NCBI GenBank assembly: GCA_030533105.1
Contig: JAUNJT010000001.1
Location: 20,933-61,586 of the forward strand
Origin: Eggerthellaceae bacterium
Lineage (GTDB): Bacteria; Actinomycetota; Coriobacteriia; Coriobacteriales; Eggerthellaceae
Length of the DNA: 40,654 bases
Direction: 5' to 3'
Below, piece after piece: positions 2,848-40,654 of this stretch. A program made the position numbers and the translations under genes. The notes beneath the pieces are model-generated. The model was not told the origin of the DNA. It saw nothing but the letters and a program-made list of their open reading frames with translations, and made no database searches. The stretch's first letter is position 1. Each line of letters starts with the position of its first letter.

Positions 2848-2876
2848 AGTGTACTTGAGAACGCCCGCAAAGTCCA
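2848..2876 (-). promoter_or_regulatory. Candidate promoter for xpt-ade
   Basis: On the minus strand TGGACT (2871-2876) and TACACT (2848-2853) are separated by 17 nt, each matching the sigma-70 consensus at 4 of 6 positions. The position would give a leader of about 30 nt before xpt. This is pattern matching only. Confidence 0.4.
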
Positions 2877-2913
2877 CGATTTGCGCACTGCGAAACACTG
2901 AGCAAACGCGCCG

Positions 2914-5226: not shown

Positions 5227-5247
5227 GAAGGCTCCTTTCGTTTGCTT

Positions 5248-6507: not shown

Positions 6508-6511
6508 AGAA

Positions 6512-6604: not shown

Positions 6605-6649
6605 CATAAGACAAGCGGCTTTTTGAAAAGAGCCTCTGTCTTCGACGCT

Positions 6650-6678
6650 AGTTTACACGCTGTATGCACATCTATCCA
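6650..6678 (-). promoter_or_regulatory. Candidate promoter of the thiamine operon
   Basis: TGGATA (6673-6678) and TAAACT (6650-6655) on the minus strand are 17 nt apart, each 4 of 6 to consensus, and would start transcription roughly 40 nt before the TPP aptamer. No other signal stands out between here and the tRNA promoter. Confidence 0.4.
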
Positions 6679-6795
6679 GAGCGAACGGTCGCGTGGCATC
6701 CTGCTGTCTATTTGTGGCGTTGTTCTTCAATCATTGACGCTGAAAAAGACCGAAGGATAAAACACGGAATGCACTGGCAAACGGCAGAATGCCCC

Positions 6796-6848: not shown

Positions 6849-6924
6849 GCCAATGTGGCTCAGTTGGTAGAGCAACGCACTCGTAATGCGTAGGTCAGCG
6901 GTTCGAGTCCGCTCATTGGCTCCA
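6849..6924 (+). tRNA. tRNA-Thr, anticodon CGT
   Basis: A complete 76-nt cloverleaf including encoded CCA. Acceptor arms GCCAATG/CATTGGC pair over 7 bp; the D stem is GCTC/GAGC; the anticodon stem ACGCA/TGCGT encloses CTCGTAA with anticodon CGT, reading ACG (Thr); the T arm is AGCGG-TTCGAGT-CCGCT. The base before CCA is U. It is the only plus-strand gene in the window and is flanked by its own promoter and terminator, so it is a single-gene transcription unit. Confidence 0.97.
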
Positions 6925-6932
6925 CAAAATCG

Positions 6933-6970
6933 CAGGTCAGCCTGATATTATGGCTGACCTGTTTTGTTTT
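6933..6970 (+). terminator. Intrinsic terminator after tRNA-Thr
   Basis: A perfect 10-bp stem, CAGGTCAGCC (6933-6942) with GGCTGACCTG (6952-6961), and a 9-nt loop are followed by TTTTGTTTT. On the minus strand the stem is followed by a short T run too, so it may also stop transcription coming from the aldo/keto reductase gene. Confidence 0.9.
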
Positions 6971-7030
6971 CCTCGACATTGCGGGGATATTTTTGGGGAT
7001 ATTCGCGCAAACCTGGCCGACGCGCAGACG

Positions 7031-8056: not shown

Positions 8057-8161
8057 GGTACCCTCCGCCCGATGCTCCCTGTGATGATGCCATTATCGCA
8101 TGAGGTTCGGTTTTCGGCCGTGCATTTGTCGAATCGTGTAGGGAGCAGACAAGAATGATCA

Positions 8162-8194
8162 GGGCCCCTGATGCTTGTTCAGGGGCCCGTTTTC
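8162..8194 (-). terminator. Terminator hairpin after the giant adhesin gene
   Basis: A perfect 10-bp stem, GGGCCCCTGA with TCAGGGGCCC (8162-8171 and 8179-8188), lies 40 nt past the adhesin stop codon. On the minus strand the trailing bases are only modestly U-rich; the clean T run (8190-8193) is on the plus side, so the hairpin may work in both directions. Its place between two minus-strand genes suggests that it mainly ends the adhesin transcript. Confidence 0.7.
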
Positions 8195-32200: not shown

Positions 32201-33983
32201 CGTTCGCCTTCTCGACGCCGTCTTCCATGTCGGCGTACGCATCCGGAACGTTCGACTCGTCATAGACGTAGCGGCCGACGTGGATTGCGGTCGCCTCATC
32301 GATCACGTTGAGCTGCGGAGCGTAAATGTAGTAGATGTCCTTCGCCTCAAGACGCAAAGACGAGAGGAAGGGATTCGAGTCAGCCGTGAAGATGGCTGCG
32401 ATGATCGTGTTTGCGGAAGAGATCACATAGTCGGTGAAGCTCTCAAGCGCGTTGTTATAGACGATGGTTCCGGAGGCATTGCCGTCCTTGCCGAGCTTGA
32501 GTTCCTTCTCCTGCTTGCCCTCAAGGTCATCGGTGTATGCTTCGACATTCGCGAAGTTGAGGACCAACGCATTATGGATCAGCTCAGAGGTGTTCTCGTC
32601 CTTTTCAGGCTTGTTCGGTTCGAGTACCAAGCGCTCTGCGTTGCCGGAGATGCCGTACTCCTTCTTGTCGGTGTCGTTGTAGATCTTGCCCGTCAGATGG
32701 ACGCGATCCGCACCCTCGCCGCCATCGACCTTGAAATCGTTTGTGTTTGTGGCGATGTATTGCAAGCTGGTGTCGAGCGTGATGAGGTCATCACCCTCGC
32801 CTCCGTAAATCTCAACGCTGCTCTTACCGGCACCCTTCTTGGGACCTTGAGCCGTGATGGCATCGTTGCCGGCATCGCCGTAGATTTCGAAGTCGGATGA
32901 TTTGTGCACGGTGTTGATGACCAAGCCGATCGTGTCGTCACCCGCGCCGCCATGGATGAGCGCATCCTGGGCCTTGGCCTTCTCTTCGCTCGCCTCCTTG
33001 AAGGTGATGGTGACGGTGTCGTCGCCCGCACCCAGGTTGACGGAAGAGCAAGGCACGTCGGTCAGCGTGATGACGGCGCTATCGTTGCCAGCCGTGCCGT
33101 TATAGGTGAAGGACGGTGCATCGGTCACATCGATTTTGCTCAGCGAGCTCGCCGCACCGCTATACACCGCGTTGATGCTGTTCTTCTCGCCACCCGAGAA
33201 ATACAGGCCGGACATCTCGACCGCAAGCTCTTTGATGGTGAAGTTCGCCGTAACGTTCGCGCCTATGCCGCCGTTCGCCAGCGCCTCGTCGGTCGCGCTC
33301 AGCACGCTGGCCGCACGGATGATGATGGTGAACTTATCCTTGCCAGCGAATGGATTGAACGCATGGGTCGAAACAGAGTTGTCCTCGTTCTTTACCGTTA
33401 CGACAGGCTCAATGAGAACGGTGCCCTCATAGGTGCCGTCCTTAACGACGATCGTGATGCTGTCCTTTTGATAGAGCCTGGAATTGTTGGCCTTTTGGAG
33501 CGCCGCATTCACCGCGAGCTGGATGGCATTGTCGGTGTTGGAGTTGTTATACAGGACCGCATCGCCAACCTCTTCAATGTAGCAACTGCCCGTAGGCACC
33601 TGGGTGGTCGCCGCATTGGCTGCAGGCGTCGTGGTGTCGGAGCTCGAGTTGCTTTCGCTGCCGGCGTTGGGGCTCGTGCCGTTGCTGGATGCGGAACCGC
33701 CCTCGTTGACCGTCGGGGTTTCATCCGCGGTGCCGTTATCGTTCACGGAATCGACGTCGCCATCGCCTTCAGAGCCGTTGGCATTCACGGTTCCGTCTCC
33801 CTCGCCATTGTCGTTGGCTAATCCAGCTTGGTTGACCTGGGAAGAAGTTTCCGTGTTGTCATTCTCGTCTGCGAATGCCAGCTGAGACGGCCAGAGCACA
33901 AGACTCAAAGCCAAGCTTGCCATAACGGCAAAGAGCAGGACGAACATACGGTTGCGTGTTTTCGGCTTAGCTGAATCAGTCAT
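8229..33983 (-). CDS. Giant secreted, membrane-anchored adhesin, LktA/filamentous-haemagglutinin-like (about 8,584 aa)
   Basis: One unbroken reading frame of 25.8 kb, about 63% of the window. Start ATG 33981-33983 is preferred because AAAAGGA lies 8 nt upstream; an ATG nine bases earlier has no spaced ribosome site. In order (residues approximate): signal peptide 1-38 (cleavage after LAFA); acidic Asn/Ser-rich stalk 40-125; RTX-like repeats 318-432; beta-rich repeats broken by Ser/Asn/Glu-rich linkers at 950-1027, 1840-1885, 2260-2312 and 2529-2680; a helical insert 2017-2192; a long array of about 54-residue beta repeats resembling the Fusobacterium LktA family from about 2684; Trp-containing helical repeats 6000-6482 and 7475-7732; coiled coil 7997-8240; a last beta region; and a C-terminal TM helix with Lys/Arg tail. 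It is probably a fibrous surface adhesin held in the membrane. It overlaps the upstream gene by 8 nt. Target and true function are unknown. Confidence 0.9.
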   Translation of the reverse strand: MTDSAKPKTRNRMFVLLFAVMASLALSLVLWPSQLAFADENDNTETSSQVNQAGLANDNGEGDGTVNANGSEGDGDVDSVNDNGTADETPTVNEGGSASSNGTSPNAGSESNSSSDTTTPAANAATTQVPTGSCYIEEVGDAVLYNNSNTDNAIQLAVNAALQKANNSRLYQKDSITIVVKDGTYEGTVLIEPVVTVKNEDNSVSTHAFNPFAGKDKFTIIIRAASVLSATDEALANGGIGANVTANFTIKELAVEMSGLYFSGGEKNSINAVYSGAASSLSKIDVTDAPSFTYNGTAGNDSAVITLTDVPCSSVNLGAGDDTVTITFKEASEEKAKAQDALIHGGAGDDTIGLVINTVHKSSDFEIYGDAGNDAITAQGPKKGAGKSSVEIYGGEGDDLITLDTSLQYIATNTNDFKVDGGEGADRVHLTGKIYNDTDKKEYGISGNAERLVLEPNKPEKDENTSELIHNALVLNFANVEAYTDDLEGKQEKELKLGKDGNASGTIVYNNALESFTDYVISSANTIIAAIFTADSNPFLSSLRLEAKDIYYIYAPQLNVIDEATAIHVGRYVYDESNVPDAYADMEDGVEKANAVEEASVSIALSKAAAANVPEAKRQAAGIYARNIILRGFDDDTNFVIPIPVSAVVEGQDDLDLDLSCFNFVCDGNVTIAEDAVIDASEFVSIEAKSEQIHGMLPIPQINFVTVKVGNSGIDIFGTIKAGAGIAMTSDGTITITCDASALPLSVAITTAVMDNHIVLDGATIETTGSLILRATTAIQELAASTTGLVPASLALNVAVSYTDVEIKDSTIIANGMVSAQATSSLSQSASSSLPKKGTSNYESGGFFTINVAVHEANAIITGTTNITAGGDVRAQATALDKAIGKAVSGKPATSTTVDANTKIKNLTVAQLTKLAPGIIEAVKGSMKKTDANDNKISGGFDVAKQSINDESSNEGSDSGNASDEGKKDGKAVNKVFDTATDSSSSPENDKDNASSNNNSSETNSSNDNNNTSTETPAEAPKEATGSTIHAVGAAAITVIINAADAHIDSTGTITSGADVVLDAKATTIATTLADATTLTKTNTAQSKQNKTIDNSAKITASVEKADIEKLETGGLVILMANGEYTATKTAVNLESDASTTFKNERGTVSRGNDASWIITGGTTTIENVRIDMTSNSGGTITWKGTGSNDHIVLNNPGKTTVKDGQSTKTYEGANLTITGGTLLLEEGRIVLTGATLTLEGGTIYLHNNYGTTVTNEENNPEHVVTGNFSIQKVVGGDMKIIANQGDVKRYGGDKYDNAGTFRSVTVTVSDVNQIHSDKTPGSDQSGELVHAGGQITPPTMKEINIEKDLLVDITAGTNFDADKFEMIETKDSAKNEVKTTFIAATTGEEGTEGSTVTMTGNKFTLASDSPFTITESATYHIMNGTKSTGANDTGYVKYENPDGKSMSVYIDGTFSFKFSGTYSGNLAFDNVTFVRKGETQTGSYVLKGGATEFYETIFTVTSGRILIDGDNVVLVRDNAGKLTVTGGKITIVLGDLSIATEKENKNSKILVRGGEIANVSRPAKQETTALGAALSVVVVDHDSNAYISERSTVNAKGLRINASTPFASSDAQAHAGFSNADNSVAGAIAIQVNGFNTNAYIADNANVTIADGSLAATASAKTNTKTVADCSSNAKAGGEGVGVGAGLAIDVTGIDTIANIPDGTLTVTGTLGSLTVSATHSGNQLVTGKAGSAGGTSVTPALALGVSSSTVKAYLGSGNQIKASGDATIKADNSMTRAYTGDAAAAGSGVGIGGAFGIVVANDNTSSRLNRSVKALNLSVTAKGVQQTTNTVKAGAAGTGGSKSGQSGDSSNSSSSEGGDPGSSDSSEGDSSKSGDSDAQADKAIKAGSSLGQLTGSTGLAGTSITDKTSNRQKAQTSEGSVSFAAAFGLTIAYNDVIAEICDNLAIETTGNLSVISYSDTDSKVFANASATKSRIGIGAAVSLNIVNHDTTALVGDTTLTVGGDAMVLAAQIDDSKANAELDVDLVDKLKEYVNKMIKKFENVVSFFENGNPVSVDGLNGILGIFYDSITDRITKLWEDRGDLLEAQKGPIAQAVLSQVFSMLGNRLGVAGGMAAPDLSADMQRIANDLAQDVFGRLFNFNTLWNMLPDCITDMFPGTTMTTNQLINKVYNFFYSLFGTGAAAPASTFTTWSVAGAGASDVGIAGSVSIAVVNGDTTATIKDHAGNAREKDISVTGILTVAAQSAETFDTVATAAVTGDGSEPDKNAEAASKADAKTTTATTANGKTSSGTTGVGGNTSSSGTMPSAADSKKGVGVGAAFGLVVADLNTQATIGKNRTVEAGGLDLHATARNIAETYSVAGTDPFEDKETSTKSIALDASVALNIIDATIEAVFEEGSTLASAGATVTVGEGEAAHPEFTVDPVTKGDKGYGVAVYAESKGTTLAKASGFACGGSTAVGAAVAVNIPASETIANFKGTGSAAGKVLVDAFAHTEDEAVGTATAMGADLARYFAKFAGTVERLENINSQDIENWLSKVSSGQASASDPNKNQGDNATADKINGKLDANANVNTHADELKTNTNTENVESGSSTSESNNNENNSNENENNTNAEKPKADPGASLSSNLLKTQDVKTEEKAPTSEGTSAVTKNTTKTTNPETAANEGATSEEAAPTDTSSKSVQFAAAIAVNITNHLSKALLSGTLTAGGFDVLATNNANYRTYATGAAATGEASMATIGAAVAVGVNNNKTYATVSGTAKALDATSADADWTDRAAQAGAVNIVATYTQNMDGVYAGLLGAQTIAGAASGSGSTATVAGAVSILVSNSETEASIADGATVTGGDIAVKAFDKSKLAVRAGALTASGGSTVGVGASFALIYGNDIVRATVGDGATILGNNLNVSSEKAIVTFSDYALGKDLSYLIELKPSVKKAAAPNEAITQAKDQAIITVQPVQDGAVTKYDIDINIDTDTILGAIDLLNFLSSTNYYTEAIAGAVQTAGGQSTANVAGSFAFVFANNTIEALIGDGCTIDLASDVTVEAACGTNARMITGSFSISEAKVGVGASVSVYVDMGSTTAAVGTDAGAANHSIINAGGKVKVAAHGSQPDPNFNGEFIATSDTSVQAGKDYYTRSGTGALDDRYVYTKVDAPSGDPSELGYFELEGSAYESSNILVISVAPANSATGNVAVGAVVPVIVAENSFVAEIADGAVVNAGDDVIVYAQDDAKLIPISFAYAGAQDVAVGGTVQVLVQKTQTLASIGDGAHVTSSNGSVRVAANSEEFLVNVLGSISASTKVGVAAVVSAVVTRSNTMAVIDDDAVVTAEKDVSVSAESETFMVAVSTALAGSGSVAVGAVVNVFVFDRDVTAEVGEDAQVTANTGDAIVNAKAKDYSVVVVIGGAGSGDVAVSGTVPVIVSTNRVTAKIADNAKVTAVKGSIGIFADYDTKMYIAAGSVAGSGTAAVGATVLTTVVSNDVHALVGYGAMLAAGGGGAGISSPNRDGKRKGVVVSATSNETFLGVGVSGAASGKAAVAGVVNTGVYSNNVHAIIYGGGRIDADSNDDSEGDLSTFASSDSNIYLVTGSLDAAGTAGVGASVTVLTYDKDIVASVNAYQAGELIAHDVEVNAGDKRTPEGIVQGLDESTEPTDDLYIFSVSVSAAGVAVGAGATVLYFNDTTTAELGGTVKASGDVIVAAMNDSHLINAAGAVGASGSASVTGIVAVTYFTANTTAKIVAGSDVNADGDVTITANSFERIDADVLGITGSGTAAVSGTIAVVVTEIVTKAYVGDDENSIDTTIDAASLSVIAADEYTLLGIAGTAAVSGQAGVGITAIVSVSNNTIEAYLGKSSIVTCANDVKIEATGLRDIQMYLATISAGGEAGVGVTVLVSVVGGGLDQDSSDAILAEDSILVCGKDQDDGKNGHKHTDACYSEEKYHYFKPADFWDELSATIFKDDASKQTASGKAINAKLDGTNIESLFEGDGTSYADPTEGSGIQPEASYVKVSTPTKDGLKDYFEKVGDDYIPTEDKTIVSGKTYYMLDSGVDLADVNDVYKASDDDEQTVSADVPAITGDDNARAYVAAGSVVDARNITISAKNMLLLDLMAFTASGGMVGVSTTVAVGITHANAVAYTEAGSKLISRGNVNVTSWTGSAKVAAPAGSDEANRNATFNEQIKKGSSKADSLGNVGAVFNGRSVRVVGAAGSIGMVGVAPCVAVLVLDSNSYAYIAGDVTKAVNVTVKAETHFPVAASATFGLAAGKVAVSASAAVVVSNGVVYAGVVGASVIENVSDTVTVHTDTEFDATTFAASLAGGSVAVNGAASVAVDHMTVHTFVGQATTLNDVKNLVVTASGSVTAHANIIGGVIGTISAKAGVAIATIDPIILTYVGTTPLAQGKVESAIAGASGTNKQAHVNSLTIGNNITTKGQALTLGISASLVSLSTNVLVVSNDSLIRAGVFQKNVIVDNKATIDSAFSAKADTECLAIDVGGLVVGVNVFVSNLTADNEAIVDSTGTEIEVGALEVYAGRESNPNVTTANATGIGSANAAIAIAVNVAYAENDTVNNAKVLGTGMLTVSRTLTIEANGRATAYAIMGSGIVQISGVKIASNNAFAYVDATQIASIENANVTTEGGAVKVASNFNNATNDESYGAVSLIGVNGPECNGSGKPVYNGQQLSNISLVGTTVSVGKARMDATARAIVTGAQLDTSADGSRGAVDVAVKADSYAKADTIAALVNISLVNVGVTDVRASARGTFEALLDVAGENKVGATSVSNNYDSYSFAGNGPLGGVQVSAISVDVNVARSVTETIANAGLTGTGTLDVIGNLSITAKGASNAEVEGRTYPVSISAIKVLVNNVAAKQDVKQSAFSTFGGQIIAKNSRLSVTSELGTAADPVDATSIVGSSAGVSVSLALDVTTNKAKSNSTSTNTAYITGAGSTNTTYDVASASVKATTYSAATATAAASFGVSICATVGDLDARALASDFVDASVSNLTLIASGDVDIEGYAKASVTGEVTDPGGAASITTEKLRAYADLGTSSNKQAVSASVGNNTNITSTAGSINVKAENYGNAEGKIDGGSSFSLITSTVNAKFSSNADLSTDATIGEGAKLNAAKNITVSAESKPEIASDATASAFSLTVSADETHSEATTNMTVDTSIGSGAELAAEGYVSIIARGNVKQETISDADAKGIFGGDGSIEAYSNLDRTVTTTVGDGAIITANRGNIDIKAVAGDEDHITNESYVESGAFVGISAVKTHADINSTATTTVGSGVTIEDTFGSINVISDSSMRYFYNVASCDARGVGAKPYSETDTFVTIKSNVNVGEQDGAKAFITGRHVMIDSLNSTMKVIDRTYSYGAAAGANVDAYTDLLAHVDNVTTVRNAVIRGYDSVAVRSTSSPKVDGYGRSSDGKSVYATAYVAIYAAGDADAYAYMNKNVTTFTTLVDMAGTTILSADIDVVSANNLKYGPDASGYKSSHLASLGEHSSTPVSDNVTAKVKLGDGNAYYVGDAAAGIVIDISGNESNPTVRAVGLRGERSIWTIVDNEVRIGNISNPLKGTLDVTRELKGLRTKVGVAAANVYDQNMIPYVLILNHTNLDVVLSAITVENANYLSPSVNGSSIKNANKTSVKGALDENGVPTSNPVRPEVSVISNGCGNVEVNGLIANQTGSVSFGWTDAENRGSLVAGAAGVTTMNLEQLVAPIWANTFVVDGAQDVGAENARMNLFATWTDGAKPTTSVHASGDIWFGITDVIIEVGTAPATAAPRANAVEVSDIVGGNTDLEVNVATTIYRAADSPIISMPTPGKLEYTNDKLANLVSDTYINADAMDAYLVGETDFDKTFLLPNGTIIHTDLDGVVTRIIEGGIDVTFDDYVITANLDGDLIATIGQGVAINLSTGVIIIEEDASLDMLLSSLDGEWLKGIVEKGDTKIVVYDSSKPVTINDEENGISVTVPKAITLKAERLIEINGITYYQLTGSGASLDFASYTFDAAFGNSNSNSITAVLATGSTDKLRDWITSWDPNAQGSQLPAWQIISIVNRLITDEDYNGIAVEDDIDTNDDLIFWLPNHDDFSAWFRNKLDSNRDVLDEIDKLADENESKLSELIRRQNLDGKKAWEWIEHHISGDDQVVEEKLESILESLFTAEDYAQFAVGDVAVGGSVGGISDEDRNAIAAQIMARDDFGDWLYTRLSDPANASVLAQLDLYGSRISDYIKEGMEQADFEKLVTWILNNDKLFDTDNDLPKDELWRFIKSLVRDGECDEKEELAGFLPVWSGFSGWLLDKLNDSANADVLENLDALEDDDDKTLSSLLGKAGVTGSEAWEWIESHAANAGKTGEYYLSQLIAEDKDKEYGKAAIADKYLADLVGGDSVIAAEYIAQHLVGEANADALAAADAAYAINASMLLAERNAGKLKAWFQDSVTDAGDQLLIVGSLLAAGDVNPLVYPKIGINENGYRIDNFTMLSEWLYERLTSGMPAALDAIDELKGLTDAEFTGCVYLLSYDKNTKTMGAWQVAEAAKTSVGSAKDYLDKTWAGELKNSATDGKVFSEIWGGEKFIGFLLERGNYEGKNDEGYDRYGMNVEAVKGILATPESIPVDDFLGTGMTVYLTPTYARNGVKITNTDIREYVITGISGFSLKIASSSSSIGPYTSLPLNAISQTAEGYYYIDWDKAQQSSEWMMSVDAQSFYEKLRNVIWTQSIESVFTSMTVKGMCGNTNPTTYTHNYSANYVTSADLYDDEDCLRFAYLVGKKKDVPSRFRYVILHPYEHRVKLSYINLKPADVILEQSYKYTEVDAGTEFDPSVTYYVQDISGTRYVKCDIAEFDPNKTYYTASPDYVILSLSQSNNEDAGASVESCVTLLGPVEEVQATAMTIPADTKWASSSSSTIGYRITEALYVADDGTYYFREPTDLEGFMQWFDLAFGSDNYTTDKVTENGVECTLTDAELKTLLGTRASFLKDTASLADPSVSLTKKLFAVNIALLADDYANISRRAQAALNKLNDTANYPQWLARQIANNVTNAQLALNALGIIAGTDILPSTYVKAGDMKQAWYRPADNPQTFASADTIVTTPAPQRAARTSTVMLVHGQKVYLEILSPEVARSVDGKYYVIPEGGTDYTDADAVDEVNDIVKSTAEITLDDDTKINTTVESLDIEYKGVRYLTIKRYYDENGELVLIEHVMRGETLEEATVVDSNGNVKPGKTVKWEAVENAGSAYALSNIVGENVKVTILDRDAGAKLVNGDPKPAIVGDHILIVTGDGVEIGTETDSLATAPYSADVAAVEFETLAGDENIIVGNTWLETDGSVRLPDDLVITEGKSYHHEATQDVIYTTIDVAKKGNLDLVAERNVTGVTREDGVESYVNVAEGGHASLFAGNENTFNTLIAAGGATVGVTGEAAIVGESVVGHGDAAFTLSSNGDINSADHYLVVDLPEDNALNIAQANDYYLVGVESTSAHQEYADASGRDQDGNDVSGTHMGDMGGETVTAEIISDDTAELASWILERIEGRDDVVALLDDAAADPCDALVAAGDVDGFAEWLARQFEQGTLDDDAIAALVAELINDADVTPITAGDLADGVLANADALTTWLAERLADDPGTLTSLNTLDEAALKALVESLITDEEIEAANEAARAAHAIDVLADEENLTTWLAKHLAGNDEVRAALNDAVAEKVDDIIAANDPTALAAWIDSQKGQGAVDEALLATVVSSLLTVEDFEALEQAAWDKTTYPETDPSKLDELRGLSVAVGKSTGSAYVENRGDISITQTSGTLTAGKVVSQLGDVTLVNEKGDIIGDADEPENIQGNDLSLEASGNIGPIVTESGAVDLTVVGTIENVTNGAVSAVAYDQATGKFVTTWNVDYQQVANFNEEETGSLDATAGDSVEVTEKSGDMGVDTIEAGGTVELKADSISDARDGATTDPNITAEGVTLIASDGGIGTVDEPIEINTNGEGTSADATVNAVASGDVNLTETEGVMRVGAIVAGGDANLVASDGDLVDADTDDMISKLGELLEEARVAEQQAESAAESARLREDTLQQLLEAYEAAQAATDAAEDALDDLKQQIADKLGVAPDEVTDELLAQYAEDAQAAADKAAADAKAAQDAVNKLTEALANNDQDAIDKIKQQIADEQGVASDEVTDSMIAKHVADAKATADKAASDAKDALAAADAAAAYAKTTQDALDSAEKKLADAQKAESDAKDAYETLKAEVDGYKQTAKDKTKEAAAARAEAEKLQQKLDAVEPAITTGGDLNVTADNVGTNGNALSTNVGGQLNVDGDADGNNVGSVNVENTGDLTTGAIAADDAVSLAATGDIQVNNDDESVADIAADTVTIRSTDGDVGSANDPVSVETSGLDVYGKNVYVKGFKDLSVDSVVAEDNASLSADGDVNDTNNGAGVVADSANITAGGNIGSADNPLDVNADNLTTNSGGDTTVNLTSPLTTVDMTAGGDIAITSTGAVQGTTNSQNLNIVADGDVGSDDEPLVAYFDGENGTVNATSNYGMVNIETHSTTSSSETTTNGDTTFGGFRGAGMEVEDGLEDALAFKLPIPKMSVHGDFNWIPFVVGGLIVCGGAAFAVAKRRRRQEDEQTA
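8247..8325 (-). other. C-terminal membrane anchor of the adhesin
   Basis: The last 35 residues contain WIPFVVGGLIVCGGAAFAVA followed by KRRRR and a short acidic end. This is a single TM helix with a positive cytoplasmic stop. No LPxTG-type sortase motif precedes it; the nearest similar string, LPIPKM, lacks the Thr-Gly. The protein therefore appears tethered in the membrane, not covalently joined to peptidoglycan. Confidence 0.85.
9265..9995 (-). repeat. Ala/Lys/Glu-rich coiled coil with 63-residue internal repeat
   Basis: About 240 residues of heptad-like Ala/Lys/Glu/Asp sequence near the C terminus. Two in-frame copies of a unit beginning KQQIAD and continuing GVAxDEVTDxxxA are offset by 189 bp (9808-9821 versus 9619-9632 share nearly the same bases), exactly 63 codons. 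It interrupts the terminal beta region and probably forms a rod. Confidence 0.85.
10790..11560 (-). repeat. Trp-helix repeats, second block
   Basis: Units of about 50-60 residues built on a pattern L/F-x-x-W-L-x-x-x-L followed by an acidic Leu-rich helix: FAEWLARQF (11366-11392), LTTWLAERL (11219-11245), LTTWLAKHL (11037-11063) and LAAWI (about 10940). The block is helical and acidic, unlike the beta repeats on either side. I do not recognise a named family. Confidence 0.7.
13490..13640 (-). repeat. Small TYY module, copy 3
   Basis: Two half-units, EFDPSVTYYVQD and EFDPNKTYYTAS, within about 45 residues. They resemble the two GKxYY modules at 24475-24645 and 21865-22006. Such short modules are familiar from phage and surface proteins of gut bacteria; their function is not known to me. 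Confidence 0.55.
14540..15985 (-). repeat. Trp-helix repeats, first block
   Basis: About 480 residues, largely helical and acidic, with recurring FxxWLxxxL elements: FSAWFRNKL (near 15770), FGDWLYTRL (15430-15456), FSGWLLDKL (15145-15171) and LSEWLYERL (14583-14609). Between them, AWEWIEHH and AWEWIESH recur. The spacing is about 90-95 residues, longer than in the second block, and a related single element (YPQWLARQI) sits near 12970. Confidence 0.7.
21865..22006 (-). repeat. Small GKTYY module, copy 2
   Basis: About 47 residues containing PTKDGLKDYFEKVGDDYIP and TIVSGKTYYML, inserted between two beta-repeat units. It pairs with the module at 24475-24645, which has the order AGKDYYTRSG, VDAPSGDPSELGYFE. 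Confidence 0.6.
22203..22256 (-). other. Cys/His cluster insert in the adhesin
   Basis: Residues C3910, H3921, H3923 and C3927 occur as CG-x9-HKH-x3-C, ending TDACYSE. The CGK...HTHTDACY pattern is a recurring short element in surface proteins of Firmicutes and Actinobacteria and looks able to bind a metal ion. It interrupts the beta-repeat array. Confidence 0.6.
24475..24645 (-). repeat. Small GKxYY module, copy 1
   Basis: About 55 residues with SVQAGKDYYTRSG, YVYTKVDAPSGDPSELGYFE, placed between two beta-repeat units. It is the best-preserved of the three such modules in the protein. Confidence 0.6.
27410..27935 (-). other. Helical insert within the adhesin beta region
   Basis: About 175 residues (2017-2192) unlike their surroundings: amphipathic helices with Leu, Phe, Lys and Met such as LVDKLKEYVNKMIKKFENV, QVFSMLGNRLGVAG and NQLINKVYNFFYSLFG. 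The beta-repeat pattern stops before and resumes after. I do not recognise the domain. Confidence 0.65.
32689..33035 (-). repeat. RTX-like calcium-binding repeats in the adhesin
   Basis: Five GGxGxDxhx-type units spread over residues 318-432: LGAGDDTVTI, GGAGDDTIGL, GDAGNDAITA, GGEGDDLITL and GGEGADRVHL. The units are about 20-35 residues apart instead of in strict nonapeptide tandem. The motif is known to bind calcium and drive beta-roll folding outside the cell. Confidence 0.75.
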
Positions 33984-34317
33984 GATCCACATCCTTTTTT
34001 ACACCGTCATCGGATTTGCGATGTTCGGATTTGCGGCGATAGGAAACGCAGCCGAGCGTGATGATGACGGCTACGATGAAGCAGATGATGCCGACGAGCA
34101 CATACCCGCCTGCACCACTGAACAGAAGGGACGCCCCGAAGAGGCCGACGACGTCTCCCGAAATCGGCTGAGAGAACGAAGCGATGAAGCCAACGAGGCA
34201 TACGGCTAGGACGACGCACGACGAGGAAAGCGCGGTAATGCTGCGCTTGGCGGCAGCACGACGATGCGCGCGGACACGTGAATTGACGAGAGCAATTCTC
34301 TCATCGGTATCCAACAT
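33976..34317 (-). CDS. Small two-TM protein B, paralogue of the protein at 35809-36198
   Basis: A 113-residue protein of no family I can name. A basic cytoplasmic N terminus (LDTDERIALVNSRVRAHRR) precedes TM1 (about 28-50), a short loop, TM2 (about 68-92, GGYVLVGIICFIVAVIITL) and a basic cytoplasmic tail. It shares the TDERIA-V-R start and the SG..GYV..GI second TM with the 129-residue protein encoded just after the sigma factor, so the two are paralogues. Start ATG 34315-34317 follows a strong GGGGGAGG. Its last 8 nt overlap the start of the giant adhesin, so the two are translationally coupled. Possible roles are an anti-sigma-like regulator or a dedicated membrane partner for export of the adhesin; the sequence does not decide between them. 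Confidence 0.8.
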   Translation of the reverse strand: MLDTDERIALVNSRVRAHRRAAAKRSITALSSSCVVLAVCLVGFIASFSQPISGDVVGLFGASLLFSGAGGYVLVGIICFIVAVIITLGCVSYRRKSEHRKSDDGVKKDVDHD

Positions 34318-34369
34318 CGAACGAGCACCTCCCCCTGCATAAAACAGTCCTACGATGCTTTAATCCGCA

Positions 34370-34417
34370 GGAAGAGAAAAATCCTCATTATTTTTTTCGT
34401 TTACTGAAAAAAGGAGG
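34370..34417 (-). terminator. U-rich hairpin between the protease gene and protein B (possible attenuator)
   Basis: On the minus strand CCTC-CTTTTTTC, loop AGTAAAC, GAAAAAAA-TAAT-GAGG is followed by ATTTTTCTC. The stem is long but mostly A-T, with a GC clamp at its foot. It fits a weak intrinsic terminator that could separate the regulator genes from the adhesin genes. I saw no convincing sigma-70 promoter in the 150-nt gap. Confidence 0.4.
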
Positions 34418-34469: not shown

Positions 34470-35141
34470 TTAATCGATCGGTTCCGTTAGGAACATGTCG
34501 GTCGCCCGCTTCTTCTCATGGACGCGACGTCTCGCAAGGATCACCGCGCAGGTGACGATCGGTGCGGCTAGCGCAACATACATCAACACGCCCTCTGCCG
34601 CCAACAGCACATTGAATAGCTCGTGGAACGAGATGGCAACGCATAGCATCGAGAAGCCTCCGACGATACGAGTCGAAAGCCGCGAAGTCGTATGCCGTAA
34701 TTGCACGAGGCCATACACCGCGAGCATTGCGCACGCAAGGTGCATAGCTCCCGTTCCGAAGCCGCGCAAGAACAGAAGAGAGATCGACGAGGCACCGTTC
34801 TCAATGAGATAGCAAACGTTTTCGAAAGTAGCGAAGCTGATGCCGATGACGAGTGCGAAGCTGACCAGCGCTTCGTCTTTCGGGTCGAACACTGCGAGGA
34901 TGAACACGACGGGCAAGAACTTCATGAACTCCTCGACAACCGGAGTGATCTCTGCCGCCGTCGCTACGACATCAGCACCGTAGAGCTGCGCGAAGAACGC
35001 GCTCACATAGGCCGAAAGCAGGCAGGCAACCATGCCGAGGACGACCCCGAAGATGCTTAATCGCCTCGGACCCCTCACGAAGAAAAGCAACACCACAAGA
35101 GGGGCGACTAGGCACACGAATATGTTCTCGATGTACAGCAT
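34470..35141 (-). CDS. PrsW-type intramembrane protease
   Basis: A 223-residue polytopic membrane protein with the PrsW signatures: PVVEEFMKF (E70, E71, K74; EExxK), FATFENVC (F103...E107-N108), R126...H134 (GAMHLACAML), and FHELFN (H173), all inside or at the ends of TM segments, as in this metalloprotease-like CAAX/PrsW clan. In Bacillus subtilis PrsW makes the first cut in the anti-sigma factor RsiW to free sigma-W. Here the gene is in the same operon as an ECF sigma factor and a candidate membrane anti-sigma protein, so the same role is likely by analogy. Start ATG 35139-35141 overlaps the previous stop by one base (TGATG), so translation is coupled. The substrate is inferred. Confidence 0.85.
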   Translation of the reverse strand: MLYIENIFVCLVAPLVVLLFFVRGPRRLSIFGVVLGMVACLLSAYVSAFFAQLYGADVVATAAEITPVVEEFMKFLPVVFILAVFDPKDEALVSFALVIGISFATFENVCYLIENGASSISLLFLRGFGTGAMHLACAMLAVYGLVQLRHTTSRLSTRIVGGFSMLCVAISFHELFNVLLAAEGVLMYVALAAPIVTCAVILARRRVHEKKRATDMFLTEPID

Positions 35142-35812
35142 CAGTCACCGTCTCCGTCGTGAAACTTTTTGAAACGCATGACAGTTAGCGTTATGCAGAG
35201 AATCGCCACGTATACGAGAGGTCCGACCCAGTAGTAAGGATTCGAGATGCTCACCGTGCCGTCGACGGCCGAACACGACCACAGGATGTACTCAAGCGCT
35301 ACGAAGCACACCGTTGCGACATAGAACCTGGTATGTCTCGTAATTCCTTTTGATCGATCCTCTTTAGTATTGAGGAGCGCGGAGAGGGAAAAGAGGGCAA
35401 TGCCCGACATCGCACAACCCATCAGGATGTTGAGTACCGGGTCGCCCGCAACGGCGACATACCATGTCGAGAGCGCTGCGATGACGATCGGGCCTATCCA
35501 TGCAGTCGGATTAATTGGAGAAAGGCCTTCCTTGCCGTAAACCTCAACGATGAGCAGCAGAAGGAACAGCTCCTCGGCCAACCACGCAAGTTCCTCGCCG
35601 TAGAAGTATTGAGGAGAATGCCCGAAAACGAATGTATAAATGGTCCAACAGGAATCGCCGAGCAACCCAGCGCCGACGAATCCGCGAGCAAACAGACGGA
35701 TCTCCGCACTCGGCCACGTGCGTTTCGCGAACATCATCGCCGCGCAGACGACGAGCACGGCGAGGCCGAACAAGTTCTCGATCTGCTCTATGTTGACATC
35801 GATGAAATTCAC
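35141..35812 (-). CDS. Polytopic membrane protein of unknown function
   Basis: A 223-residue protein with about seven hydrophobic segments and short polar loops; I do not recognise the family. The frame is open for a further 92 codons upstream, but that part is a very Arg-rich shadow of the preceding gene. The GTG at 35810-35812 (MNFIDVNIEQIENL when translated) is chosen because it overlaps the stop of the preceding gene (GTGA) and has GAGGA 9 nt upstream. It ends one base into the protease gene. Conspicuous features are a polar pair in TM segments (GEELAWLAEELFLLLLIVE) and a charged cytoplasmic tail (KKFHDGDGD). Lying between the candidate anti-sigma factor and PrsW, it could be a sensor or a partner of the protease; this is inference from position only. 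Confidence 0.75.
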   Translation of the reverse strand: MNFIDVNIEQIENLFGLAVLVVCAAMMFAKRTWPSAEIRLFARGFVGAGLLGDSCWTIYTFVFGHSPQYFYGEELAWLAEELFLLLLIVEVYGKEGLSPINPTAWIGPIVIAALSTWYVAVAGDPVLNILMGCAMSGIALFSLSALLNTKEDRSKGITRHTRFYVATVCFVALEYILWSCSAVDGTVSISNPYYWVGPLVYVAILCITLTVMRFKKFHDGDGD

Positions 35813-36198
35813 AGAGCGTTGTCCTCGCCAACGTCGGGATCGCTGTTGCCCTCGCGAGCGAAAACGACCTCGTCGGCATCCTCGCGGAGCCGATCCCTGA
35901 TTTTCACGCACAACAACGTCAAGGCAACGCCGAGGCAGAACGCAAGGATGCCGATGACGACGTATCCGAGCATCCCGCCTGAAGCCAGAATAGAACCGTA
36001 TGCGCCCGAGGTGCCCAACGTTGCAGTCGGCGCACTTCCGGAAACACTCGGAATGTAAAAGGCGAAACCGAAGATCGCCGCAACGCATGCGATTGTCGAG
36101 ATGCCCGACAAAACATATCCACGGCGTTGTGCCGTACGACGGCGCAGCGTTCTTGAGCGCGCCTGCACGGCAGCGATTCTCTCATCGGTCGAACGCAT
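35809..36198 (-). CDS. Small two-TM protein A, candidate membrane anti-sigma factor
   Basis: A 129-residue protein: cytoplasmic N terminus (RSTDERIAAVQARSRTLRR), TM1 (about 27-50), an outside loop of about 22 residues rich in Gly/Ser/Ala, TM2 (about 73-97, GYVVIGILAFCLGVALTLL) and an acidic cytoplasmic tail. No zinc anti-sigma (H-x3-C-x2-C) motif is present. Start ATG 36196-36198 follows GGGGAG and lies 17 nt inside the sigma factor gene, a tight overlap usual for sigma/anti-sigma pairs. It is paralogous to protein B in front of the adhesin. Being co-encoded with an ECF sigma factor and a PrsW-type protease makes an anti-sigma role the most economical reading, but no sequence hallmark proves it. 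Confidence 0.78.
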   Translation of the reverse strand: MRSTDERIAAVQARSRTLRRRTAQRRGYVLSGISTIACVAAIFGFAFYIPSVSGSAPTATLGTSGAYGSILASGGMLGYVVIGILAFCLGVALTLLCVKIRDRLREDADEVVFAREGNSDPDVGEDNAL

Positions 36199-36742
36199 TG
36201 GTCACTCCCCTCTTCGCTAAGAGCGGTTTCATGGCGGCCTTGCCACGCGAAACCAGGTTGTCCACCTGCTTGCGCGACTTGCCCATAACCGTGGCTGCCT
36301 GCTCGTAGCTCATCTCCTCAATATACACGAGATACAGCGCCTCGCGATAGTCTGCTGGAAGCTCGTCCAGACAGCTGCGTACGATGCGCGATGTGTCGGT
36401 CGTGAACACCGCGGCATCGACGCGATGCTCGTCTTCGGGATCTAGCTCAAGATGCTCGAAACTGAAAATGCGGCTGCGGCGCTCCAAATGGCGCAGGGCT
36501 AGGTTGCGCGCGGTCTTATACAGGTAAGGCCGAAAGCCCGCCACGGTGAAACGCGGGCGTTTGGCGATGATGCGCGAGAAAGCCTCGATCATGAGATCCT
36601 CGGAATCATGGAGGTCGTGAAGATAGCCGTTGATGTAAAGGGTGAGGCTGTCGCCATAGCGGTCCATGAGCGTACGCAGACCCGACTCCGCACCCGCGAG
36701 GAAGTCGTTGAAACAACGCTCATCTGTTAATTCATCGCGCAT
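36182..36742 (-). CDS. ECF-type sigma-70 family RNA polymerase sigma factor
   Basis: An alternative sigma factor that directs RNA polymerase to a small promoter set. Region 2 spans about residues 15-85, with DSEDLMIEAFSRI and FRPYLYKTARNLALRHLERR (core binding and -10 recognition). Region 4 (about 120-180) has LDELPADYREALYLVYIEEM and a helix-turn-helix SYEQAATVMGKSRKQVDNLVSRG for the -35 element. The two-domain layout without region 1 or 3 is that of ECF factors. The ATG at 36740-36742 is preferred (AGGA 5 nt upstream), giving 186 residues; ATG 36748 and GTG 36763 are alternatives. It heads the regulatory gene block ending in the PrsW protease and overlaps protein A. A TAAAAT box about 45 nt upstream could be its -10. 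Confidence 0.93.
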   Translation of the reverse strand: MRDELTDERCFNDFLAGAESGLRTLMDRYGDSLTLYINGYLHDLHDSEDLMIEAFSRIIAKRPRFTVAGFRPYLYKTARNLALRHLERRSRIFSFEHLELDPEDEHRVDAAVFTTDTSRIVRSCLDELPADYREALYLVYIEEMSYEQAATVMGKSRKQVDNLVSRGKAAMKPLLAKRGVTNAFDR

Positions 36743-36862
36743 TGGCATCCTACGAAAAACCACTACCGAAAAGCATTCGTAATTTTACCAGAGAGCTACG
36801 TTGAAAGACATTGGCGACAAGACAGACGGAAGGTCCCAGAAACCGTTTTGGCCGACCCAGCG

Positions 36863-36935: not shown

Positions 36936-38027
36936 CTAGAACTTATACCTGCGGAACATTTCCTCGAAATCGAATTCGTCCTGCAGTTCCTCAAGCATAT
37001 CGTGGCAGGTGTAATAATCGTATGCCGCGCTGAAGAACTCCTCGATATTGCTCGGATCGGTGAGTGCGGGAACGTCGCAGCCGGATGACAGCCAGAAGTT
37101 GTCATAGCGATAGCAGTCATGCATGACTTCGTAGGTTGCCTTGCGGATGGAGGCCTTCGTGCCGCCGAAGAACTCCTCGGACGGGCTCACGTTGCCCATG
37201 ACCAACACGTCTTCCGGTGCCTTCTCGAGCATTTCCTTCAGCGTGATCTTGTCGCCGAAATGATAGCCCTTGCAGCCGATGTCGAAAATCTCCTCAGCCT
37301 GCAGCACCGTGTTGTTGCCGCAGTTGTGATAGAAGATCACGAAGTTCTTGTCTTGGCACTCTTCGACGATGCGCTTCATGTAGTCGCAAGAGAACTCGCC
37401 AACCAAAGCAGGCGAAAGGATGCCTGCCAATGGCTCGGCAACCATTATGCCGTGTGCACCGAGGGCCTTGTAGGCCTTGATGTAATCGATGATGAACGTG
37501 GTGGCCTTGTCGAGCACCGTATGCATCATGTCGGGTTCCTCGTAGCACAGAACCATTGCTTCGGTGATGTCAACCAAGCGGCCAGCCAAAGAGAACGGAC
37601 CGATGCATTCGGCGAACACGGGACGATCCTTGATGAGATGCAGCGCCATCTCGATACCGAGCAGGTAAGAGCCAGTGCGCCCCGTGCCCACCTCGGGAAT
37701 CACGAGAGCGTCGGCTTCGTCCTCATCGGTGACGAGAGCACCGGAGATGGTCGGGATCTCGTCCTCATGATAGATGCACTCAGCACCGAAGGCTTCGGCC
37801 TCAGCGGAAAGATCCATGTAACCCATGGCGATGCGCATGTCGTACTTTTCGGCCATCAATTTGATGCCGATTGCCTGACCGACGGGGTTCTTCGAAAGAC
37901 GCTCCACCGAAGAACCTAATACCGCGGCGGCAGGGAACGTCGCGATTGGCTGTGGAACCTTGTGACGTGTCGCGATGGCCGCGTTGCACCAGTTGTACAT
38001 GTTGGAAAACTTGCTGTTCGATGGCAT
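36936..38027 (-). CDS. MtaA/UroD-family corrinoid-type methyltransferase
   Basis: A 363-residue protein of the uroporphyrinogen decarboxylase superfamily, in the branch of methylcobamide:acceptor methyltransferases. The zinc-type HxC...C set of that branch is visible: FYHNCGNN (His and Cys, about residue 253) and WLSSGCDVP (Cys, about residue 326). Others of its hallmarks are HFGDK and VLVMGNVSPSE. True uroporphyrinogen decarboxylases lack these Cys ligands. Such enzymes move methyl groups from a corrinoid protein to a thiol or folate-like acceptor. No corrinoid protein or partner methyltransferase is nearby, so the substrate is open. ATG 38025-38027 (GGGAG, 6-nt spacer) is chosen over an 18-codon longer Arg-rich version. 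It is monocistronic. Confidence 0.85.
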   Translation of the reverse strand: MPSNSKFSNMYNWCNAAIATRHKVPQPIATFPAAAVLGSSVERLSKNPVGQAIGIKLMAEKYDMRIAMGYMDLSAEAEAFGAECIYHEDEIPTISGALVTDEDEADALVIPEVGTGRTGSYLLGIEMALHLIKDRPVFAECIGPFSLAGRLVDITEAMVLCYEEPDMMHTVLDKATTFIIDYIKAYKALGAHGIMVAEPLAGILSPALVGEFSCDYMKRIVEECQDKNFVIFYHNCGNNTVLQAEEIFDIGCKGYHFGDKITLKEMLEKAPEDVLVMGNVSPSEEFFGGTKASIRKATYEVMHDCYRYDNFWLSSGCDVPALTDPSNIEEFFSAAYDYYTCHDMLEELQDEFDFEEMFRRYKF

Positions 38028-38271
38028 TCTTTGCTCCCGTTCTCTTCGACTGCCTATTCGATATCGCGCAGCGCGCAACATCCGCGCAGCGCGTCATGGT
38101 GGGCGCGAGGACCCGCAGCTTACGCGCCCTTGCGCTGATAGATAATCGTAGGAAAACCCACCCCCAGTAAGCATGATACTCCTGATGGGGAAATACGGGG
38201 AGAGAGAACGTTGCCGTTTTATGGAAAGATATTACCTGCCGCCGCCACACCGTAATAGGCCATACGGAGTA

Positions 38272-38296
38272 CGGCGACGGGCAAGACCCGTCGCCG
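38272..38296 (-). terminator. Hairpin after ecfT
   Basis: A perfect 10-bp stem, CGGCGACGGG with CCCGTCGCCG, and a 5-nt loop lie 27 nt past the ecfT stop. No T run follows on the minus strand, so termination would be inefficient or need Rho. The rest of the 296-nt gap to the methyltransferase gene holds two copies of GCGCTGCGCG but no gene or riboswitch that I can recognise. Confidence 0.5.
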
Positions 38297-38323
38297 ATTC
38301 AGACAAACGGCGCAAAGGGTGAC

Positions 38324-39160
38324 TCACAGAATGCCCGCGAGCATCGTGTCTGCAACATTGCAGCCAATCACCGCCGCCAGCAAAATGACGATGGCAAGCA
38401 CCGCGAAACCATCTAAGCGCGTGAACTCCATGGGCTTTAGCCGCGTGCGCCCGACACCTCCGCGATAGCAGCGCGAATCCATAGCCTGGCTCAACGTGTC
38501 GGCGTGGCGGAACACGCTTGTGAACAGCGGGACGAGCAGCGCGGTCAGACCAGTGGTGCGACGCCTGTGCGCGCTCAACAGCTTGGATCCTCGGCTTTGC
38601 TGTGCGCGGCGAATGTTCGAAAACTCGCGCGAGAACTGCGGGATGAAGCCGAGCGCGATGCCCATCATGAGCGATATCTCACGCGCAGGCACGCCGAGAC
38701 GCTTGAAGGGAGTGAGCAGCTTCTCGAATGAATCGGCGATATCGATGGTCGTTGTGGTCAGCGTGTACAGGCACATGATCAAAAGGAACAACGTCAGGCG
38801 GATGCCGAAGAAGATCGCGTCATGCACGCCTTGCGTGGTGATAAGGATCGGTCCGGCACTTATAAGCTCTTCCCCACCGCTGACGAACAGCAAATTCAAG
38901 ATCATCGTGATGACAACGATGAACATAAGCGGGGCGATTGCGCGAAGCGCCGCGGAGATGGGCACTTTAGCGAGCGCGTAGCAGACAGCCGTGAACAGGC
39001 ACAGTGCGCACAGCGCAGCAGGCGACCATGCGAACAGGCCGATGATGGTCGCAATGAGAGCACCAAGGAATTTCGTACGCGGATCGAGCGCATGGATGGG
39101 GCTTTCGGTCTCGTAGTACGTCCCGAAGATGGCGCCCCTGCCAATGGTCCCTTTACCCAT
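38324..39160 (-). CDS. ecfT: Energy-coupling factor transporter transmembrane protein EcfT
   Basis: EcfT is the membrane scaffold linking ATPase and substrate-binding S component in ECF vitamin transporters. The 278-residue protein starts with a family-type SPIHALDPRTKFLGAL, has about five or six TM helices, and bears the coupling-helix motifs in its cytoplasmic part: FSNIRRAQQSRGS (A-R-G type) and SQAMDSRCYRGG (second A/S-R-G type), which dock into the ATPases. Start ATG 39158-39160 overlaps the preceding gene by 8 nt with GAGGTG as ribosome site; a longer frame up to 39259 is a shadow of the previous gene. Paired with the S-ATPase fusion upstream, it should complete a functional riboflavin-type importer if the single ATPase acts as a homodimer. 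Confidence 0.93.
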   Translation of the reverse strand: MGKGTIGRGAIFGTYYETESPIHALDPRTKFLGALIATIIGLFAWSPAALCALCLFTAVCYALAKVPISAALRAIAPLMFIVVITMILNLLFVSGGEELISAGPILITTQGVHDAIFFGIRLTLFLLIMCLYTLTTTTIDIADSFEKLLTPFKRLGVPAREISLMMGIALGFIPQFSREFSNIRRAQQSRGSKLLSAHRRRTTGLTALLVPLFTSVFRHADTLSQAMDSRCYRGGVGRTRLKPMEFTRLDGFAVLAIVILLAAVIGCNVADTMLAGIL

Positions 39161-40610
39161 TGCGCACCTCGTTTGCAGCAAGCATGTAGCGCGGCAGATC
39201 GAGACCAACCGAGCGCAGGTTGTCAGCGTTTTCGGGAACGAACACGGCACTCGGCGCATCTAGGAAGCGCTGCTCGCCATGATCTAAAACGAGCATGCGA
39301 TTGCAGTGAACGGCAAGATCGTCCATGTCGTGCGATACGAGCACGATCGTCGTTCCTGCGGCATGAAGCTCATCGAGCAGACCGAAAAGCGCCATACGTC
39401 CCGCCGGATCGAGACCCGCGCTTGGTTCGTCAAGCACAAGCACGTCGGGTTCCATCGCCAAAATGCCCGCGATGGCTGCACGACGCTGCTGACCACCCGA
39501 AAGCTCGAAGGGGTTCTTCGTGGCAAGTTCGCGCTCCAAATGCACCAAATCGAGAGCCCTCGCAACGCGACGCTTGATCACGGCAGGCTCGAGGCCTAAG
39601 TTACATGGCCCGAACGCCACATCATCCGCAACCGTCGAGGCGAACAGTTGGTATTCCGGATACTGGAAGACCACTCCCACGTGCGCGGGCACGTTGCGCG
39701 CATTATCTTTGTCGGCAAGGTCGAGGTTCTTATACAGCACGCGCCCCTTGCTTGGCTGGTTCAGACCATTCATGAGCAGCGTCAGCGTCGACTTGCCCGA
39801 ACCCGTTGCACCCGCGACGCCGAAGAAATCGCCACGCTTTATGACGAAATCGATGTCGTGGAGCGCATCCGTTTTGCCGTCATACGAAAACGAGACGTGC
39901 TCGAACGTCAGGATCGGGCCATCGAAACCATCTGCAGGCTCTTGCGCTCCGGCAAGCCCCTCGATGATTTCTGCAGGCTCTTCGTCCGACGCCTCGTCGG
40001 CATTCCAATACGTCGGGACAACGGTGCCGCCTACGTCCTCAACCTGTTCTTTCTTCGGAGTGATCAGGTTCGAGATGCTCTTGTAGCACAGCAAGGTGAT
40101 CAGAGAGTTGATAACTGCCTTGAGCGCATTGAACGGCAACAGGATGGGCAGGATCATCGCGATGATAGACTCGAGCGGCGTACCCGTGTACAAAGGAGTG
40201 ATGACGAGGTTGCCCAGAATCGCCATGCCGATAGACACTACACTGCCGACGATAAGGCCGATGATCGCACCGCGACGGCGATGGATCTTGCGGTAGATGA
40301 TTGCCGCAGGCAGCACATAGCCCACAACGACCAGGATGTTCATGACCGCGCCGGCAAGGTTACCTGCAATGATGCCATGAAGCAGCGCGGTGACCACGCC
40401 GATGATGATGCCCGGCCCCGCACCATACGCGAAGCCGCCTACCATGGTGGGGACGAAGCTCGCGTCATACTTCAAAAACGGCGCTGCGGGGAAAATCGGG
40501 AACTCGATGAAGGACAGCACCGTTGCCAGCGCGCAGAAAAGCGCCATGGTTACAAGCTGTCGGGTGCTCCAACGTGGAGCGTCTGATTGCGCACGTGAGT
40601 CGATAGGCAT
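39153..40610 (-). CDS. Fused ECF S component (RibU-like) and ECF ATPase
   Basis: A 485-residue fusion. Residues about 15-190 form a six-helix S component whose segment FPAAPFLKYDASFVPTMVGG resembles the riboflavin-binding RibU pattern (W/FLKxDxSxxP). An acidic linker (about 193-230) joins it to an ABC ATPase with Walker A GATGSGKST, Q loop FQYPEYQLF, signature LSGGQQRR, Walker B VLVLDEPSAGLD and switch His (VSHDMDD). Start ATG 40608-40610 (AAAGGGG, 8-nt gap) lies just after an FMN riboswitch, so riboflavin is the likely substrate. It overlaps ecfT. Only one ATPase is encoded here, unlike the usual EcfA/EcfA' pair. The reading frame extends to 40637, but that part lies in the riboswitch. Confidence 0.92.
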   Translation of the reverse strand: MPIDSRAQSDAPRWSTRQLVTMALFCALATVLSFIEFPIFPAAPFLKYDASFVPTMVGGFAYGAGPGIIIGVVTALLHGIIAGNLAGAVMNILVVVGYVLPAAIIYRKIHRRRGAIIGLIVGSVVSIGMAILGNLVITPLYTGTPLESIIAMILPILLPFNALKAVINSLITLLCYKSISNLITPKKEQVEDVGGTVVPTYWNADEASDEEPAEIIEGLAGAQEPADGFDGPILTFEHVSFSYDGKTDALHDIDFVIKRGDFFGVAGATGSGKSTLTLLMNGLNQPSKGRVLYKNLDLADKDNARNVPAHVGVVFQYPEYQLFASTVADDVAFGPCNLGLEPAVIKRRVARALDLVHLERELATKNPFELSGGQQRRAAIAGILAMEPDVLVLDEPSAGLDPAGRMALFGLLDELHAAGTTIVLVSHDMDDLAVHCNRMLVLDHGEQRFLDAPSAVFVPENADNLRSVGLDLPRYMLAANEVRNG

Positions 40611-40625
40611 AGTATCAGCCCCTTT

Positions 40626-40654
40626 CGTTTCTTCCATCCGGACTGTAACCGTTG
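40626..40654 (-). promoter_or_regulatory. FMN riboswitch (RFN element), 3' end only
   Basis: Minus-strand sequence at the window edge reads ACGGTTACAGTCCGGATG then GAAGAAACG, the conserved 3' block of the RFN element. The rest lies outside the window. The ribosome site AAAGGGG of the following gene begins directly after it, so FMN probably controls translation. Confidence 0.85.

Follow-up and report, generated by a model that had tools for sequence, protein, structure and literature searches.

We report that a seven-helix membrane protein without a recognised family is encoded directly upstream of the intramembrane protease PrsW in a conserved cassette, which in the window (the whole 40,654-nucleotide stretch of Eggerthellaceae DNA that was analysed) stands before a gene for a giant protein. 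We lean towards the view that this protein acts as the sensor or controller of a self-contained, portable membrane cassette that would sense, cut and express, through steps that we infer and set out below. In some gut bacteria, the cassette probably senses an outside cue and responds by inducing giant surface proteins or genes for peptide export. The sequence-only reading had treated the seven-helix protein and PrsW as a pair; the two are linked, but the unit proved larger, comprising an ECF sigma factor, the two-transmembrane (2-TM) proteins A and B, a promoter-like element and secreted cargo. To our knowledge, no cue is firmly established as the one that makes PrsW cut.

Gene order and distribution of the cassette

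All genes of the cassette lie on the reverse strand of the window. The first encodes an ECF-type sigma factor (36182-36763; Sigma70_r2, E = 2.5e-10; Sigma70_r4_2, E = 1.8e-15; TIGR02937, E = 1.8e-22) and is followed by the gene for the small 2-TM protein A (35809-36198), which may be an anti-sigma factor of the membrane or a substrate of PrsW. Next comes the seven-helix gene (35141-35812), an open reading frame of 223 aa running from a GTG start at 35812 to a TGA stop at 35141, whose product is a candidate receptor or regulator of PrsW. The neighbouring gene (34470-35141) had been read as PrsW, and this was borne out by PF13367 (E = 6.9e-18; 65.3 bits against a cut-off of 23.5). A gap of 152 bp separates it from the gene for the small 2-TM protein B (33976-34317), a homologue of A, which is followed by the cargo gene for an 8587-aa giant protein (8229-33992), with a hairpin-like stem directly 3' of it at 8162-8188. 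Translational coupling at both ends of the seven-helix gene, also proposed from the sequence, was confirmed: it overlaps the gene for A by 4 nt (GTGA) and that for PrsW by 1 nt (TGATG). The sigma factor and A genes overlap by 17 nt, as do the B and giant genes. Proteins A and B are homologous (hhalign, 99.5%, E = 3.3e-22) and have in common a basic N-terminal segment starting with DER; neither gave a Pfam or NCBIfam match over cut-off, anti-sigma families included, although either may still carry a short sigma-binding helix that these families do not capture.

A 28.8-kb segment holding exactly these six genes (8105-36936) is not present at the same site in G091, a sister species of the same genus (98% complete) in which neither the seven-helix protein nor the PrsW profile found a match. 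The flanks of the segment, window 6880-8104 and 36937-40654, match contig C25 of G091 at 920-2121 (80%) and 2219-5913 (83%), respectively, and are there 97 bp apart. The left match on C25 is only 1.2 kb long because the remainder of this flank sits on a different contig in G091. The island junctions show no repeats, and G091 might have lost the unit or the window lineage might have gained it. Separately, synteny with G091 breaks at a tRNA-Thr gene (window 6849-6924): window 1-6969 matches contig C6 at 21856-28867, and 6876-7006 is found a second time, in part, at C6:43278-43408. The tRNA-Thr site is possibly an integration site used in G091.

A profile of the seven-helix protein matched 8 of 138 genomes of the family and 11 of 396 genomes sampled from the class, with six strong and five weak matches (E from 5e-4 to 4e-3). 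A scan of the genome collection with the single protein gave no match, and one with the family alignment gave six loci. The PrsW profile A4 matched 24 of 395 genomes of the order, and its best 14 matches form a clear group (223-340 bits, the next being 144 bits), 10 of these 14 PrsW proteins having already been in the profile. Besides the window itself, seven loci (G414, G116, G124, G125, G128, G129 and G114) came first from searches with the seven-helix protein. The remaining six (G094, G315, G439, G440, G447 and G450) came from searches with PrsW and so are free of selection bias; all six have the seven-helix part. The 14 loci span four families of one order (f1, f2, f5 and f10), and in every one the order is ECF sigma factor, optional A, seven-helix protein, PrsW, B and then cargo, with a sigma factor homologue in 14/14 loci of this PrsW subfamily. 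The stop of the seven-helix gene and the start of the PrsW gene overlap by 1 or 4 nt in all 13 unfused loci. Protein A is encoded in nine loci and is missing from G129, G128, G114, G439 and G094.

In G094, the multi-helix region is an N-terminal fusion to PrsW (480 aa), encoded directly after the sigma factor gene; the fusion half is weakly like the seven-helix family (hhalign, E = 0.013) and does not match the G315/G440 profile, and B was assigned there from its position and weak similarity. The long variants as a group (G315, G440 and G094) are weakly related by profile (E = 2.3e-3; reversed control, 0.58). With the G315/G440 profile, the top match was a seven-helix protein of the cassette (E = 0.001), and an unrelated protein (E = 0.021) scored above two others. 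At a further locus (L015, on G112:C38), a cassette-type sigma factor gene (58% identical) is followed by a masked stretch spanning most of the seven-helix gene, so that the seven-helix match in G112 covers only part of the protein.

Promoter-like element and cargo

Within the gap between PrsW and B lies a 31-bp bipartite promoter-like element, ATGAGGATTTTTCTCTTCCTGCGGATTAAAG (34358-34388, reverse strand), which consists of GTGAGG, 19 bp and a TCTAAG-like block, with 40 bp between its end and the B start codon. It was first noticed visually in upstream regions, and each site was then scored with a matrix made from the remaining ones. With this leave-one-out matrix, the window element ranked first of 81,248 positions on both strands (20.9 bits against 14.0 for the next), and the element was the best match of its locus in nine of the 12 loci tried. 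At L040, it ranked 89th in the first register and first after a 2-bp shift (18.7 against 11.5 bits). The candidates at L120 (rank 4) and L089 (rank 16) are unsupported, and no element was found before B in L014 and L043, so that the element is present in 10 of the 14 loci. None was found before the sigma factor gene in the upstream regions examined. Across nine genomes, the pattern with 0 or 1 mismatch had five matches, all of them the cassette sites from which the pattern itself was drawn, and with two mismatches it had 43 matches against 37 in the reversed control, which is no better than the control. The sequence pattern suggests that the element serves one dedicated target operon.

Cargo is visible in seven of the 14 loci and is secreted or surface-directed in each. 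The giant of the window has an N-terminal signal-like hydrophobic stretch, read by eye, and no Pfam family at E 0.001. In G414 the cassette is followed by another giant, its frame open over 5,437 codons or more, whose match to a tandem-repeat filamentous protein stays under the cut-off. In G447, the cargo is a 1696-aa protein without a family together with a leucine-rich repeat (LRR) protein, and G450 has a 1730-aa protein that resembles that of G447 by eye. NHLM/RiPP peptide-export genes take this place in three loci: G116 has NHLM exporter genes (ABC1 over cut-off, ABC2 just under, and a short HlyD far under), G124 has the same HlyD fragment with ABC genes assigned by reading, and G315 has a radical SAM/SPASM gene, a Nif11 precursor (over cut-off in Pfam, under it in NCBIfam) and the start of ABC1. 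The 133-aa HlyD fragments (L009, 8486-8887; L011, 4322-4723) directly follow B and match only the start of the 421-position NHLM HlyD model; they are perhaps a shortened form of the HlyD exporter part.

The main rival to a signalling role is processing of the cargo by PrsW, in which PrsW and the seven-helix protein, with or without A and B, would process or release the cargo or give immunity against it, the sigma factor being regulated otherwise. The visible cargo is always destined for secretion or the surface, B overlaps the giant gene, a passage of one paper proposes that PrsW relatives process exported toxins (PMC3482391), and a passage of another counts putative bacteriocin-processing enzymes among the superfamily (PMC4602095). 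By contrast, the cassette is constant and the cargo is unrelated between loci (giants, radical-SAM/Nif11 peptides with NHLM exporters, LRR proteins), which argues against such processing; in addition, PrsW is encoded together with the sigma factor, and the element separates it from B and the cargo in 10/14 loci. We regard cargo processing as unlikely, if the least unlikely of the alternatives.

The seven-helix protein and its PrsW partner

The seven-helix protein had been described as unrecognised, and remote-homology searches left it so. Neither the window protein nor any of seven members scanned singly matched a Pfam or NCBIfam family over the curated cut-off, and the profile matched none of the PDB sequences at E 10. 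YhhN/TMEM86, considered as a possible identity, was not among the Pfam scan matches. Viral collections held no relative, so that a phage origin is not supported. In 10 further genomes the protein is conserved at 19-54% identity, always ahead of a PrsW gene whose start overlaps its stop by 1 or 4 nt, which indicates that the reading frame is more than chance.

An AlphaFold model built with 11 homologues has a mean pLDDT of 91.4 and a pTM of 0.89 (the five models span 88.8-91.4); it replaces an earlier model from a 7-row alignment (pLDDT 69.6), the fold matches of which are superseded. The modelled helices run over residues 3-29, 36-63, 71-95, 102-122, 125-147, 161-183 and 193-212. Taken over all 11 homologues, the four segments predicted to be inside contain 98 lysine and arginine residues and the four outer ones seven, which places the N-terminus outside and the C-terminus inside. 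The confident model and this charge bias together uphold the seven helices first counted from the sequence. An adhesion GPCR came out on top in a VIA comparison (Z = 14.0, with 185 aligned at rmsd 3.6), and GPCRs and microbial rhodopsins came next; judged by title, the 50 matches listed were GPCRs or microbial rhodopsins, except for a designed GPCR-like protein and one entitled 'Structure of membrane protein'. Helical bundles with Z below about 13 may reflect a common arrangement, and with Z = 14 just above this we claim architecture and not descent. The best Foldseek match was proteorhodopsin (E = 3.9e-3, TM 0.53), with none at E 0.001 from either the 7-row or the 11-row model. As modelled, the protein has a GPCR/rhodopsin-type architecture with its N-terminus predicted outside.

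Conservation is concentrated at the outer face. Twenty-one columns are the same in 10 or all of the 11 homologues, and 12 of them are at the outer side (55, 56, 59, 62, 64, 67, 71, 77, 79, 178, 181 and 193), and these map to the outer ends of modelled helices 2, 3, 6 and 7 or to the loop between helices 2 and 3. The acidic pairs within hydrophobic stretches, which had drawn attention in the window sequence, are present there but mostly not conserved: the pair E73-E74 occurs in one and the pair E80-E81 in two of the 11 homologues, and an acidic residue is found at position 74 in all 11 and at positions 80 and 81 in three each. The earlier idea of a signal-sensing subunit for PrsW accordingly keeps the receptor-like fold and the outer conserved cluster, which fit it, and loses the acidic pairs as a conserved feature.

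The PrsW protein of the window carries the residues of its family. EExxK, a histidine in TM5 and HxxxN/D in TM6 are given as PrsW motifs in a passage of PMC4602095, and the window protein has EExxK (E70, E71 and K74), the TM5 histidine (H134) and HxxxN (H173 and N177); together with E107, these residues are invariant in 10/10 aligned members. PF13367 has 63 matches in 53 of 296 genomes of the class. In 50 of these loci the upstream side of PrsW was scanned for an adjacent multi-TM gene (five or more predicted helices), and four had one, among them the seven-helix cassette at L089 and a related pair at L087. The seven-helix protein goes with a single PrsW subfamily, and the proposed tie to PrsW therefore holds across the 14 loci of that subfamily but does not make the protein a general PrsW partner.

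Other multi-helix proteins were seen near and away from PrsW. Of the six PrsW loci that rank next after the 14, five (G205, G437, G458, G084 and G462) have another multi-helix gene immediately upstream. A single comparison is suggestive of a resemblance between this second kind and the window family (E = 3.8e-4; reversed control, 0.15). The second kind is paired with PrsW at L042, L087, L121, L122 and L123, with no sigma factor gene noticed in the fetched stretch, and at L042 and L087 a gene for a secreted coiled-coil-like protein lies upstream of the pair. In the sixth locus (G073, L041), PrsW follows a 1396-aa surface-like protein (1883-6729) and not a seven-helix gene; the best promoter-matrix match of this locus, a weak one of 12.9 bits at 1846-1876, lies just before the surface gene. 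Stand-alone multi-helix proteins of 270-310 aa from other Coriobacteriia (L044-L047) are weakly related to the seven-helix family through a profile match over helices 1-3, with E = 1.8e-4 in hhalign and 0.67 for the reversed control. They carry the pattern GDxxW..EV..G..PP..PD.FY and have GDxxW...G..P...[DE] in common with the family, but no module-type PrsW adjoins them in the fetched stretches. L047 matched no Pfam family, and the four resemble the sensory membrane region found in certain GGDEF and kinase proteins.

These data bear on two further explanations. The seven-helix protein could be a factor for the assembly or stability of PrsW, a scaffold or chaperone without a ligand of its own; an obligate complex would account for the translational coupling and the 1:1 co-occurrence, and the conservation of the outer loop could be structural. 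Against this, 46 of the 50 sampled PrsW loci of the class lack a gene of at least five predicted helices directly upstream, and the strongest conservation is found at the outer face instead of being spread over the whole helix surface. We rate this explanation as slightly less probable than cargo processing. Least probable of all is an unrecognised transporter, an enzyme or a ligand-independent membrane-stress sensor whose proximity to PrsW is secondary. In its favour, folds of 7-8 TM helices are common and the best Pfam match is TauE (E = 0.044), though far below cut-off (13.9 bits against 32.6). Against it, neither the window protein nor the seven members scanned reached the cut-off of any family, the ten other high-scoring homologues (alignment A7) all adjoin PrsW, and no candidate catalytic charged pair is conserved in the 11 homologues. 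As for a PrsW/CPBP-type protease, which would show EExx[KR] and histidine motifs, the 21 conserved columns contain no Glu-Glu pair and no histidine, and the seven-helix profile reached only E = 0.054 against PrsW.

Proposed mechanism and comparison with known systems

In the reading we favour, with the seven-helix protein as the sensing or control subunit, the protein would sense a signal from outside or from the membrane through the conserved pocket at its outer face, its N-terminus being outside, and would activate its partner PrsW in the membrane. PrsW would then cleave the 2-TM proteins A and/or B, which would hold the ECF sigma factor, and a general site-2 protease would complete the cleavage and release it. 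The site-2 protease family PF02163 is present in 12/12 genomes searched and also in 14/14 control genomes, so that this result is not discriminating. The freed sigma factor would transcribe from the promoter-like element before B, leading to production of the secreted cargo, and B would provide negative feedback. A more specific version, in which a bacterial GPCR-like receptor, on binding a signal at its outer pocket, directly gates the action of PrsW on A and B and frees a private ECF sigma factor, within a mobile cassette placed before giants or peptide-export weapons, is offered more tentatively, as somewhat short of an even chance.

If this is true, a heptahelical receptor-like family joins bacterial signalling, and there would be an explanation of how very large surface proteins and peptide-export clusters stay off until needed. 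Having PrsW with a dedicated, receptor-shaped partner, a short conserved promoter-like element and a single target operon could make signal, protease and output assayable in one transferable cassette. A search of titles and abstracts in open-licence PMC found no literature describing such a cassette.

Known systems invite comparison. The seven-helix protein is like GPCRs and microbial rhodopsins in being an N-out, C-in bundle of seven helices by model, charge and VIA, and differs in having no sequence similarity to solved structures at E 10. Microbial rhodopsins have a retinal-binding lysine in TM7, and GPCRs have a [DE]RY motif at the inner end of helix 3. No lysine occurs in columns 193-212 (TM7) of any of the 11 homologues, and hence there is no retinal attachment site; the window protein has EVYG at 90-93, and across the rows there is no arginine at the inner end of helix 3. 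NHLM/NHLP bacteriocin export clusters have a counterpart in the cargo of G116, G124 and G315, but there the export genes are cargo and lie outside the conserved cassette.

Another close parallel is the SigW-RsiW-PrsW-RasP pathway of Bacillus subtilis, where passages of two papers give PrsW as the site-1 protease of RsiW and list stresses, with no PrsW receptor named in them (PMC3498285, PMC10202637). Both have an ECF sigma factor and a PrsW-family protease with intact motifs, the membrane proteins of the cassette are of anti-sigma-like size, and a site-2 protease family is present in the genome. The cassette differs in its dedicated seven-helix protein between the sigma factor and PrsW, in a PrsW that is not the Bacillus equivalog (NF033739; 31.8 bits for the window protein against a cut-off of 225), in 2-TM proteins A and B without a recognised anti-sigma domain, in an element that stands before B and the cargo and not before the sigma factor, and in having one cargo and not a broad stress regulon. 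On the reading favoured here, the cassette is of a known kind, ECF signalling via intramembrane proteolysis, and what is new is an unrecognised receptor-like subunit in a portable cassette.
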